Shown piece by piece: positions 6,875 through 19,795 of a stretch of 25,473 bases of DNA. Positions within the stretch are counted from its first letter, which is position 1; each line of letters starts with the position of its first letter. The notes under the pieces were generated by a model. The model made no database searches and was not told the origin of the DNA. It saw only the letters and a program-made list of their open reading frames with translations. Position numbers and translations under genes: made by a program. Source of the stretch: a virus; IMG/VR virus record IMGVR_UViG_3300027554_000010, positions 1-25,473 of that record. The stretch is one strand, 5' to 3'.

Positions 6875-7750
6875 ATGAGTACAAGTAAAGATGTTACAGG
6901 ATTACTATTAGAGGATTTATGGGATTTGTGTTACAGAGCGCATAGTTGGATTTCTTTTAGTCCAGAAAAAAGAGCAACCAGATATATCAAAGAATATAGC
7001 GAGTTGTTAAAATCAGATTTGGAACTGTTAGGGGAAAACCAAGGAAACTACAAAGAGAAATTTATTAGCAAGTTTAAGGATTGGATGGGAGCAAAAAGCA
7101 ACTGTGCATCATCCGCTATTACAGGAGGTTCTGGTTTTAATGTAAGGAAAGCAAACAAGGCTAATGATAGAGAGCATAAAAAATGGCAGGATTTCTCAAT
7201 GTGGAGAGATAAGTATTTTAATGCAGTTAATCGTGTGCCAACTAAAAGTCCAGAGGATGAGTTGGAGATTGCAGAGAATTTATTGGAGAAACTTACTTTG
7301 AACCAATTAGAGTATAAAGAGATAAATGCAGAGATTAGAAAGTGCAAAATAACAGACCATTACGAATTGCTGAAATATCTGGGAGAGCAAGGATTTGACA
7401 AGAGTAAATTTGGAGAAATACAGGAGCGAGGAGGTAAATTAAAAATTCCATCATACGTGCTAACTAATAACAATGCGACTATTAAGAGAAATGAGCAAAA
7501 AGTTAAGGTTATGCAAGCAAGAATTGACCGCAAGAATACTTGGGAGGACATCAAATTTGATGGAGGATATGTTACTATTGAGGATGATAGGTTAAAGATT
7601 TTCCACGATGAGAAACCAGAGAGAGTTGTGATTGATGAGATTAAAAAGAATGGTTTTAGATGGTCGCCACATTGGGGATGTTGGTGCAGAAAGCATACAG
7701 GCAATGCGATCTACTCTTTGAGGTTTTTAAGTTTCATTAATCAAAAATAA
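6875..7750 (+). CDS. Conserved phage protein with C-terminal GFRWSP motif (291 aa)
   Basis: A 291-residue protein in two parts. Residues 25-115 (SWISFSPEKRATRYIKEYSE, then KSNCASSAITGGSGFNVRKA and KANDREHKKWQDF) form a charged helical domain that I recall from proteins of Bacteroides phages and mobile elements. The last 60 residues (DDRLKIFHDEKPERVVIDEI, then KKNGFRWSPHWGCWCRK) match a short module found at the ends of many phage and plasmid proteins, often written as 'LKxxGFRWsPxxgxW'. Its function is unknown; fusions to DNA-handling domains elsewhere suggest nucleic-acid binding. ATG 6875 follows the repeated leader. A hairpin terminator lies just downstream. Confidence 0.78.
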   Translation: MSTSKDVTGLLLEDLWDLCYRAHSWISFSPEKRATRYIKEYSELLKSDLELLGENQGNYKEKFISKFKDWMGAKSNCASSAITGGSGFNVRKANKANDREHKKWQDFSMWRDKYFNAVNRVPTKSPEDELEIAENLLEKLTLNQLEYKEINAEIRKCKITDHYELLKYLGEQGFDKSKFGEIQERGGKLKIPSYVLTNNNATIKRNEQKVKVMQARIDRKNTWEDIKFDGGYVTIEDDRLKIFHDEKPERVVIDEIKKNGFRWSPHWGCWCRKHTGNAIYSLRFLSFINQK

Positions 7751-17367: not shown

Positions 17368-17498
17368 TGAGGTTTTATAAAGGATATTGTAATAATTGCA
17401 AGAGAGAGGTTTTAATGTTAGAGAAATTAATTGACCCAAAAGATTGTAATTGTAAAGAGATTGAGAATGTTTGCCAATATTGTAAAGAGAGTAAATAA
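17367..17498 (+). CDS. Zinc-ribbon mini-protein (43 aa)
   Basis: ATG at 17367 overlaps the stop of the membrane protein gene (TAATG) and the frame ends at 17496-17498. The 43-residue product has paired cysteines: YCNNCK (C8, C11), DCNCK (C27, C29) and VCQYCK (C37, C40), enough for one or two zinc sites. Such ribbons usually bind nucleic acids or proteins. It precedes the ParB-domain gene by 14 bases. The family is not recognised. Confidence 0.6.
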   Translation: MRFYKGYCNNCKREVLMLEKLIDPKDCNCKEIENVCQYCKESK

Positions 17499-17512
17499 TT
17501 AAATATCGAGAG

Positions 17513-18142
17513 ATGATTGAATTAAAAAAGATTTTGACCAATCCAGATAACCCACGAGTTATAAAGGATGAGAATTTTGAGAAGTTATGCAAGAGCATAA
17601 AAGAGTTTCCAAAGATGATGGCATTACGACCAATAATTGTGAGAGAGAATTGGATTGTTTTGGGAGGGAATATGAGGAGGAAAGCGTTGGAGCATCTGGG
17701 ATATGAAAAGATACCAAAGGATTGGGTTAAGTTCGCAAAGGATTTCACAGAGGAGGAGCAAAAGAGATTTTTGATTACTGATAATGTTGGGTTTGGAGAA
17801 TGGGATTGGGAGATATTAAACAAGAGTTGGGATGTATCTGCATTGAATGAGTGGAATTTGGATGTGCCTATTGACAAGATGATTGATGGGATGGATGAGG
17901 ATGATGATGAGTTGGAGTTTGAGCAGTCGGTACAGATTGAGCCTGCTGATGAGTATATTATGATAATTGCCCCACCGAACTCTCCAGAATGGGATGAGAT
18001 TAAGGAGAGATTGAAATTAAAGATTGTGAGGAGAGGTGGTTATAAAAAAGGCTCTCCATTTGATACGAATAGTATTGAGAGAGTAATTGAGTGGAATGAT
18101 TTTAAAACCAGATACAAAGATGCTGATAGCGATACCAAGTAA
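17513..18142 (+). CDS. ParB/Srx-fold N-terminal domain protein
   Basis: A 209-residue protein. Residues 1-95 form a ParB/sulfiredoxin-like domain: LKKILTNPDNPRVI, LRPIIVRENWIVLGGNMRRK (GGNMRRKAL at 51-59) and ITDNVGFGEWDWEILNKSWD. This fold includes nucleotide-binding CTPases and DNA nucleases, and phages often link it to DNA-modifying enzymes. An acidic linker (DEDDDELEFEQ) joins a C-terminal domain of about 60 residues (EYIMIIAPPNSPEWDEIKER). No methyltransferase is fused, unlike many phage relatives. Its end overlaps the glycosyltransferase start by 23 bases, which implies linked expression and function. A chromosome-partition role is unlikely without ParA. Confidence 0.85.
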   Translation: MIELKKILTNPDNPRVIKDENFEKLCKSIKEFPKMMALRPIIVRENWIVLGGNMRRKALEHLGYEKIPKDWVKFAKDFTEEEQKRFLITDNVGFGEWDWEILNKSWDVSALNEWNLDVPIDKMIDGMDEDDDELEFEQSVQIEPADEYIMIIAPPNSPEWDEIKERLKLKIVRRGGYKKGSPFDTNSIERVIEWNDFKTRYKDADSDTK

Positions 18143-18839
18143 GAACAGAGCAGGGAATACAACTACAAATAAGATATTGCCTAATATTGGAACTTTCTAC
18201 GTTCCAGAGAGCGAGATACACCAATACCAAAGTTACATAAAGAATGTTGTTGGAGTTCCAAATGATGTAAGAGGGATAACTGCAACCAGAAATTGGATAT
18301 TAAAAAATACAGAGGAGAGATATGTTGTTTTTCTGGATGATGATGTTAAGTATGCAGGATATACCAAGATGGCTAAATACAAAGCTTTAAAGATTGTGAT
18401 TAAGGATGAGGCTTTTTGGTTTAATGAGTTTTATAAATTCTTTGATATGTGCGAGGAGTTGAAATATAAAATTTGGGGATTAAAAACAGAAAGCGCTACA
18501 CGATCTGTTTGTCCATACAAACCTTTCAATTTCAAAGCATACGTTACAGCATCTTGTATGGGGATTGTAAATGATGGAGAGTATATGTTTGATGAGAATT
18601 ACAAAGTAAAGGAGGATTACGATATTTGTTTGAGGCACATAAGAGATAAAGGAGGTATTTTAGCAGTAAGATATTTGCATTGGGAAAATGAGCATTGGAC
18701 TACCGATGGAGGATGTAAGGATTACAGAACTGTTAAGATGGAGAAAGATGCTATTAAACTTCTGGCAAGGAGTTACCCAGGTATGGTAAGGAGAGCAACG
18801 AGTAATGCAAATAAATTCACAATTCAACTAAATTTATAA
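18120..18839 (+). CDS. TET-associated-type glycosyltransferase (TAGT)
   Basis: A 239-residue protein from ATG 18120; a TTG 33 bases upstream would add residues inside the ParB gene and precede the natural strand-one start MLIAIPSKNRAGNTTT. The N-terminal SKNRAGNTTTNKILPN, then FYVPESE, GITATRNWIL and VVFLDDDV (DDD at 73-75, the DxD-type metal/sugar-nucleotide site) fit the TAGT family of GT-A glycosyltransferases, described in phages as sugar-adding enzymes for oxidised or hydroxymethylated pyrimidines in DNA. The later KVKEDYDICLRHI and HWENEHW agree with the GT-A acceptor region. No hydroxylase or hydroxymethylase is present here, so the substrate base is unknown. Confidence 0.8.
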   Translation: MLIAIPSKNRAGNTTTNKILPNIGTFYVPESEIHQYQSYIKNVVGVPNDVRGITATRNWILKNTEERYVVFLDDDVKYAGYTKMAKYKALKIVIKDEAFWFNEFYKFFDMCEELKYKIWGLKTESATRSVCPYKPFNFKAYVTASCMGIVNDGEYMFDENYKVKEDYDICLRHIRDKGGILAVRYLHWENEHWTTDGGCKDYRTVKMEKDAIKLLARSYPGMVRRATSNANKFTIQLNL

Positions 18840-18840
18840 A

Positions 18841-19032
18841 ATGAGTAAAGGAGCGATTGAGTTTAAGATACCAGATGAGGTTTATTTTATTACTGATGAA
18901 ATGAATGAGCCTTTTTTGGTTGTTGGGATAGTTGATAGAGGATATTGTTGGAGGTATCTAATTGGAGGAAAGAATGGAGAAAAAGAGGTTGATGGTTTTG
19001 AAATAAGTAAACAAAAAAGTTACGGAGGATGA
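18841..19032 (+). CDS. Hypothetical protein (63 aa)
   Basis: A 63-residue protein starting one base after the glycosyltransferase stop and overlapping the tail chaperone start (ATGA). It looks like a small beta fold (EFKIPDEVYFITDEMNEPFL, then VVGIVDRGYCWRYLIGG), similar in style to short SH3-like phage proteins. No metal site or membrane helix. The family is not recognised. Confidence 0.62.
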   Translation: MSKGAIEFKIPDEVYFITDEMNEPFLVVGIVDRGYCWRYLIGGKNGEKEVDGFEISKQKSYGG

Positions 19033-19451
19033 AAATAGAGCGAATTGGAAAGCATACTATTGAGAGATATAATAGTATTGATGAGTTACCCACAGAGAGG
19101 TTTTTTACTTACAACAGGATGTTGTTGTTGGATAGTGGTATTGGAGGAGATATGGAGGCGGTTGATGGGCATATTAGCAAGATTATGGGATATGTAGCCA
19201 GAGAAAAAAAAGAGGAGGCAACGCAGGAGTTAATGAATATGCGTAACAGCTTTTACTTTGTCATTGAGAATATGAACCCAAAGCATTTGAGTTATGCAGC
19301 TTTGATACATCGTATTGATGGAAAGTTAATGACTGATTTTAGTGATGAGAATTTAAAGAAACTCATAAAGCAGTTGAGTGAATGGGGGGCAAATAGAGGT
19401 TTTTTTGAGATAGTCATTGAGGCAGTAAAAAAAAAATTCAAAACGAATTAG
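19029..19451 (+). CDS. Tail assembly chaperone, short form (lambda gpG-like)
   Basis: A 140-residue protein just upstream of the tape measure. Sequence: MKIERIGKHTIERYNSIDEL, RFFTYNRMLLLDSGIGGDME, NSFYFVIENMNPKHLSYAAL and a C-terminal helix ending at the A10 run (EAVKKK), then FKTN and stop. The position, the helical make-up and the frameshift site at its end match the short chaperone of siphophages, which works with a frameshifted longer form to fold and load the tape measure. It overlaps the upstream gene by four bases. I recall related proteins in Bacteroidota phages starting with 'TIERYxSLDELPxxRFxxYNKMLLID'. Confidence 0.8.
   Translation: MKIERIGKHTIERYNSIDELPTERFFTYNRMLLLDSGIGGDMEAVDGHISKIMGYVAREKKEEATQELMNMRNSFYFVIENMNPKHLSYAALIHRIDGKLMTDFSDENLKKLIKQLSEWGANRGFFEIVIEAVKKKFKTN
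19427..19436 (+). other. Candidate -1 ribosomal frameshift site (ten A residues)
   Basis: In the chaperone frame the codons read GTA AAA AAA AAA TTC, then a stop at 19449-19451. Sliding back one base on the A run gives AAA AAA AAA ATT CAA GAA-type reading that stays open to 19795 and encodes the natural continuation KKIQNELETYFPEIF. The run contains the classic A-AAA-AAA slippery heptamer. The fused product would be 255 residues. A one-base sequencing error in the homopolymer (eleven A in truth) would give the same fusion and cannot be excluded. Confidence 0.7.
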
Positions 19452-19795
19452 AAACTTACTTTCCAGAGATATTTGATAGTGCTGAAAGTAAGCAGATATT
19501 TGGAGAGATTAAAAGGATGGCTTTGTTAGTTCTGGAGGAGGTCGCAAGAGGAAAGGATAATACGGAGGAGATTAATGAGATAGATGATTATTTATTTGGA
19601 TTTGCTAAACCAAAGGAATACACAGGAAAGAAAGGAGCGGAGGTTACTTACGTTAAGAAGTATGAGGAGATGAGTTTGGTATTGACCAAGTATGCTCAAA
19701 AGGATGCCAAGACTATGACAGTTATGGAATATTACCAAGCATATTTGATGTTGAAAAAAGAGAATAAGCCAAAGCCTCGTAACCGTAAAAAATAA
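19427..19795 (+). CDS. Tail assembly chaperone, frameshift extension (gpT-like part)
   Basis: This is the -1-frame extension of the chaperone, with 19427-19516 open and without a start codon and a possible internal ATG at 19517. The extension reads QNELETYFPEIFDSAESKQI, then FGEIKRMALLVLEEVARGKD, FAKPKEYTGKKG, YVKKYEEMSLVLTKYAQKDA and TVMEYYQAYLMLKKENKPK. Related Bacteroidota-phage proteins, as I remember them, carry this part joined to the short form (KPxxFxGxxSxEVxYDKxFExMxLxL). In lambda the T part binds the tail tube protein while the G part binds the tape measure. The gene ends 62 bases before the tape measure. Independent translation from 19517 would yield a 92-residue protein, which I consider less likely. 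Confidence 0.72.
   Translation, partial: KKKIQNELETYFPEIFDSAESKQIFGEIKRMALLVLEEVARGKDNTEEINEIDDYLFGFAKPKEYTGKKGAEVTYVKKYEEMSLVLTKYAQKDAKTMTVMEYYQAYLMLKKENKPKPRNRKK

Follow-up and report, generated by a model that had tools for sequence, protein, structure and literature searches.

TAGT-family glycosyltransferases were reportedly defined by Iyer et al. 2013, and the TET/JBP–TAGT hypermodification operons are likewise said to go back to Iyer et al. 2013. T6-type TAGTs glucosylate phage DNA (PMC13216743, PMC13390438), and solitary TAGTs, without an alpha-GT or beta-GT, were counted in 288 of 753 phage genomes (PMC13216743); the role of TAGTs that have no alpha- or beta-glucosyltransferase beside them was left open by this 2026 paper. 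On the ParB side, the relevant passages of a 2025 survey (PMC12704722) describe phage proteins in which the ParB-CTPase fold is fused to methyltransferases or to DUF4417, report that CTP, ATP or GTP is bound by several of the ParB-fold proteins tested, and give the role of the family motif in nucleotide binding; these passages do not mention a pairing of ParB with TAGT.

The stretch of DNA analysed here (the window) is a whole virus record of 25,473 bp whose own genome is incomplete. It belongs to a phage of marine bacteria and is collinear with Croceibacter phage P2559S. Within it, a ParB-type gene runs into a TAGT gene, and the 23-base overlap noted in the first-pass annotation is confirmed by the coordinates of the two open reading frames:

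17513..18142, + strand: ParB-type protein, predicted adaptor, 209 aa, stop included (PF02195, PHROGs, Foldseek, aligned homologues)
17513..17866, + strand: N-terminal domain of ParB-CTPase fold, aa 1–118, exchangeable between loci, with the GG..R..A motif (G51, G52, R55)
17897..18139, + strand: partner-specific C-terminal domain, aa 129–209, seen only beside TAGT (73/73 loci)
18120..18142, + strand: overlap of the two genes, 23 bp, exactly this length in 65/73 distinct loci of the window’s TAGT clade
18120..18839, + strand: TAGT-family GT-A glycosyltransferase, 239 aa counted from a conserved ATG, stop included (PF20691, AlphaFold2)
17368..19028, + strand: segment inserted relative to phage P2559S, in which the flanking genes overlap by 4 bp
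18841..19032, + strand: 63-aa open reading frame downstream of TAGT, nearly all within the inserted segment, for which no relatives were found

Both family assignments of the first-pass annotation were borne out. The upstream protein matched ParB PHROG families (down to 1e-21), its profile matched solved ParB and Noc chains (ParB chains at 2e-8), and the AlphaFold2 model of its N-domain has the ParB fold, resembling C. crescentus ParB and Noc in Foldseek; the match to PF02195 (ParB_N; E = 2.4e-5, 24.7 bits) falls slightly under the curated Pfam cutoff of 26.3. When the protein was aligned with homologues that are 25–62% identical, R55, the P-motif arginine of a nucleotide-binding-type motif, was nearly invariant (the ParB of locus L038 is an exception), and nucleotide binding is predicted. 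The extra C-terminal domain, which had been proposed to stand in the place of the usual methyltransferase, is real and strongly conserved: the last ~80 residues are more conserved than the N-domain. This part had no separate structural match, and its model is weak (pLDDT about 50–80). No ParA was found among the window proteins and no HTH family, as expected for a central parS-binding domain, among the Pfam or NCBIfam matches of the ParB; a canonical ParABS partition protein was rejected on these grounds. The ParB is acidic (pI about 4.7) and the TAGT basic (pI about 8.8).

The TAGT itself is well above the Pfam cutoff (PF20691, E = 8.4e-14, 52.4 bits against 27.5) and matches PHROG_842, ‘beta-glucosyl-HMC-alpha-glucosyltransferase’, at 4.9e-26. 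Its AlphaFold2 model is a confident GT-A fold (pLDDT 90.7), and the residues D73-D74-D75, an acidic donor-site motif, and D166 are invariant in the alignment (n = 43). Among solved chains, none was related to it by sequence beyond chance-level matches, and a search of genome contigs with the TAGT alignment returned one MAG contig only. Purifying selection acts on both genes (median dN/dS about 0.12 for TAGT and 0.18 for ParB). PADLOC, which covers known anti-phage defence families, gave no match.

In the stretch that starts with the homologue of DNA polymerase III epsilon and ends with the tape measure gene, most window genes tested have counterparts in P2559S, arranged in the same order (TerL 74% and major head protein 86% identical); the HNH gene and the gene at 6875–7750 do not. 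The former encodes an HNH endonuclease and lies at 1750–2268. Between the homologues of P2559S_19 and P2559S_20, surrounded by structural genes, the window holds ParB, TAGT and most of the 63-aa reading frame at 17368–19028, where P2559S has two adjoining genes. Considering that these neighbours overlap in P2559S, we read the pair as an inserted cassette. Just downstream, immediately before the tape measure gene, the reading frames at 19029–19451 and 19517–19795 match the first and last parts of the 250-aa phrog_8914 and look like the usual tail-assembly chaperone pair, probably made via a programmed frameshift. The first-pass placement inside the tail module holds for this phage, in which the pair lies between two tail genes, but this site is particular to it; the usual site is directly upstream of terminase (at least 48 of 89 testable loci of the window’s clade). 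Large contigs with close TAGTs have only the pair in common with the window (three also share an SSB, weakly), from which we conclude that the cassette is passed among phages that are otherwise unrelated. In P2559S, the closest isolate, the region between ASCH and terminase (L002, 42666–44307) holds a gene in which a ParB-type N-terminus is fused to an N6/N4 methyltransferase (P2559S_66), together with a gene annotated as S-adenosylmethionine decarboxylase; the window has neither.

The pairing recurs well beyond this phage. Among 47 IMG/VR loci with TAGTs 53–72% identical to that of the window, the window’s own clade, ParB lies directly upstream of TAGT in 45 of the 46 that are testable, and the same arrangement is found at 59/66 testable loci of a second clade (jlb1 type) and 63/71 of a third (Javan291 type). 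Exceptions are a few TAGTs without an adjacent ParB (e.g., L033). Using the window-type C-domain alone as the query, all 73 further loci fetched had TAGT next to it, some of these loci being on contigs already in the locus set. As pairing and exact overlap recur in dozens of diverged loci, chance is not an adequate explanation. Most of the records are metagenomic contigs of varied completeness; out of nine fetched whole, only G002 and G003 have terminal repeats, and G001 was left out as a complete genome for its 10-kb near-duplicate. In this 44-kb contig, two 10-kb stretches that are 98.8% identical each carry ParB–TAGT (L005/L006), reflecting either a chimaeric assembly or two close phages.

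The two halves of the ParB protein behave differently. At four loci, a ParB N-domain of another kind has taken the place of the usual one, with the C-domain and TAGT retained; between L028 and L036, for instance, identity is 33% for the N-domain, 92% for the C-domain and 87% for TAGT. BLAST comparison of 210 distinct ParB proteins from four partner classes gave a similar picture, with N-domains detectably related across classes in 67–97% of pairs, and C-domains detectable in 98–100% of pairs within a class and 0–6% between classes. This pattern fits an adaptor, in which an exchangeable part would engage DNA or nucleotide and a partner-specific part would dock the enzyme. The same ParB design lies directly before Tet_JBP at 29/29 testable loci from relatives of Pelagibacter phage HTVC112P, with a TAGT behind the TET at 9 of 36 TET loci. 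Elsewhere, the neighbour or fusion partner of a ParB-type protein is Methyltransf_23 (BS-TP3), DUF4417 (Javan23, Javan386) or an N6/N4 methyltransferase. As the design partners TET, N6/N4 methyltransferase and Methyltransf_23 enzymes, a role in DNA modification is favoured for the window pair. Several annotations at these loci deserve mention: the Tet_JBP gene after ParB in HTVC112P and its relatives (L078, 2456–3987; L222–L257) is annotated as DnaJ/SNF2-like; in Leptospira phage LE3 (L073, 2486–4107), the ParB gene precedes one for a protein of 366 aa that weakly matches ABC-ATPase and GNAT families, possibly a Mom-like modifier; and in Lactococcus phage P596 (L075, 3001–3660), the 219-aa protein directly after ParB (phrog_21813) is by its position a candidate DNA-modifying enzyme.

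On balance, we lean towards the pair being a mobile, self-contained phage cassette that adds sugar to DNA, with the ParB serving as an NTP-dependent adaptor that takes the TAGT to its substrate. This reading is built on families, folds, pairing, overlap, modularity, reuse of the ParB design, purifying selection and the absence of known hydroxylating enzymes. In the mechanism we envisage, the ParB would bind NTP and load on phage DNA in an NTP-dependent manner, its exchangeable N-terminal domain engaging the DNA for site choice or clamping; its conserved C-terminal domain would physically dock the TAGT, which would then use a nucleotide-sugar as donor and glycosylate a base in the phage DNA, probably late in infection and before packaging. 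The base would lack a hydroxyl, so that the sugar might be attached to some other atom of an ordinary base, such as an exocyclic amine, or else the hydroxyl might come from an unrecognised enzyme. What counts against the cassette reading is that an acceptor hydroxyl has no known source and that DNA is so far only a predicted acceptor for ParB-linked TAGTs; the few TAGTs without a ParB neighbour, the L038 ParB that lacks the motif arginine, and the GREB1 and fold comparisons given below also count against it. A bolder form, which we put forward tentatively, is that ParB–TAGT is a stand-alone system that places sugar directly on an ordinary, non-hydroxylated base at sites set by the exchangeable ParB, in viruses of bacteria and archaea and with intact copies in E. 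coli Rac-type prophages.

The main rival is that the TAGT glycosylates a protein (of the virion, the terminase, a host protein or the ParB itself), with the ParB as its targeting or substrate partner, since GREB1, a eukaryotic TAGT homologue, is reported to act as a protein O-GlcNAc transferase (cited in PMC12645433; PMC4111573). The best structural matches of the TAGT model include TarP, WrtF and ppGalNAc-transferases (the last at Z about 14), and the gene adjoins terminase or structural genes, in records where searches found no source of a DNA hydroxyl. However, as these closest folds include protein, polysaccharide and teichoic-acid glycosyltransferases, the fold leaves the acceptor undecided, and a GT-A match says nothing about it. 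The same ParB design partners TET and DNA methyltransferases, the T6 TAGT acts on DNA (PMC13216743), and the cassette is common to phages whose genes are otherwise unrelated. We regard a protein target as unlikely.

A second alternative, close to the first-pass proposal, is that the pair is the sugar-adding half of a hypermodification pathway in which an enzyme from a family outside those searched, of phage or host origin, provides the hydroxylated base (an unrecognised oxygenase, for example). The first-pass annotation was right that the window lacks such a partner: searches of its 25,473 bp for Tet_JBP, for the thymidylate-synthase/hydroxymethylase family and for C5-methyltransferases were empty, and no methyltransferase was present among the 31 other window proteins. 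The further suggestion, that a base-modifying partner lies elsewhere, fared poorly. Tet_JBP was found in 0/30 records and in 0/47 TAGT-bearing records of 21–54 kb, with all four known TET records detected as positive controls, and PF00303 (thymidylate synthase/hydroxymethylase) was found in 0/30 records, 0/41 TAGT records (about 70 in all) and 0/7 isolates, with the controls RB18, ctUhy936 and LuckyBarnes all detected. Neither Tet_JBP nor a hydroxymethylase family was present in jlb1, Javan291, c5, NTR1, HHTV-2 or the P. gingivalis phage, which are deposited as complete, and neither an oxygenase nor a hydroxymethylase came up when the non-structural proteins encoded by jlb1, Javan291 and G003, a terminally redundant contig, were scanned against Pfam. 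G003 encodes a dCTP-deaminase-like protein. These absence calls are imperfect, as the first look of the genome search missed the TAGT in two records that hold it (G001 and G011).

The half-pathway does have precedent, considering that other phages’ TAGTs follow Tet_JBP or hydroxymethylase genes: those of RB18, ctUhy936 and LuckyBarnes adjoin hydroxymethylase-type genes and have no annotated ParB neighbour. When 46 TAGTs were placed in a tree, the hydroxymethylase-linked proteins grouped with some TET-linked ones, and those linked to ParB fell into large clades of their own. Beside the window’s clade the tree puts two TET-linked TAGTs (support 96/76, on a long branch), and C5-methyltransferases are present in 3/30 records, both of which would suit a split pathway. 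Against it, a missing partner, while possible, would need to be an enzyme that has escaped recognition and on which phages can draw in hosts as unlike as E. coli, Lactobacillus and Haloarcula. Because neither Tet_JBP nor a hydroxymethylase or thymidylate synthase was found by searches that detected their controls, the reading as half a system is weakened, and we give it a low probability. Overall, the first-pass reading of the pair is partly supported. Lastly, although the ParB fold and the often adjoining terminase would suit two unrelated morons that merely sit together, with the ParB acting in partition or packaging, this is very improbable given the near-constant adjacency in three diverged TAGT clades, the fixed overlap, the partner-specific C-domain and the lack of ParA and of an HTH domain.

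The cassette that we favour as a DNA-modifying unit is also found in isolates. ParB–TAGT stands a short way upstream of terminase in two Lactobacillus phages (jlb1 and c5, the pair opening the c5 genome as genes one and two), in Streptococcus phage Javan291, in a phage of P. gingivalis and in Rac-type prophages of E. coli; in Haloarcula virus HHTV-2, it lies upstream of the terminase at a distance of about 3 kb. In Nocardia phage NTR1, TAGT is at the same place, and a ParB beside it is unconfirmed, as the upstream 281-aa gene gave no Pfam match. The Rac-type prophages (L340, L349, L351) have the order trkG–ParB–TAGT–terminase. Among 5,426 complete E. coli genomes in RefSeq, 1,559 match the E. 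coli pair and 885, about one in six, carry at least 80% of it. Strain K-12 MG1655 has lost most of the pair to a deletion, and the remnant, known as ynaK, is the beginning of the ParB gene, now joined to ydaY. In PGAP annotation, the E. coli TAGT appears as ‘GREB1-related protein’, and ynaK copies that are longer are flagged incomplete. The more complete E. coli copies and isolated lactobacillus phages such as c5 make the proposal directly testable.

Compared with the described systems, the window pair shares single elements with each. Like the T6/T2 beta-glucosyl-HMC-alpha-glucosyltransferase, its TAGT is phage-encoded, belongs to PF20691 and is of GT-A type; the substrate of the T6 enzyme, however, is glucosyl-hydroxymethylcytosine, and RB18, a T-even relative, has the gene next to dCMP hydroxymethylase, whereas the window has a ParB partner and no hydroxymethylase was found in it. 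With the TET/JBP–TAGT operons it has the TAGT in common and, in marine phages, also the same ParB in front (ParB–TET–TAGT), but Tet_JBP was found neither in the window nor in the 47 TAGT records. As in the ParB-CTPase-fold fusions (P2559S_66 and those of PMC12704722), a ParB N-domain is linked with an enzyme that acts on DNA or has no known function; the window differs in that the partner, a glycosyltransferase, is encoded by a separate, overlapping gene and the ParB has its own class of C-domain. The findings suggest a general modular scheme in which both the ParB domain and the DNA-modifying enzyme can be swapped, and perhaps a way of modifying bases that have not first been hydroxylated. 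Finally, like the solitary TAGTs (PMC13216743), the window TAGT occurs without an alpha- or beta-GT. What is added here, whether or not some of the genomes are among those 288, is that it belongs to one of three TAGT clades where searches met no known hydroxylase and where a ParB partner with a partner-specific, docking-type domain is nearly constant.
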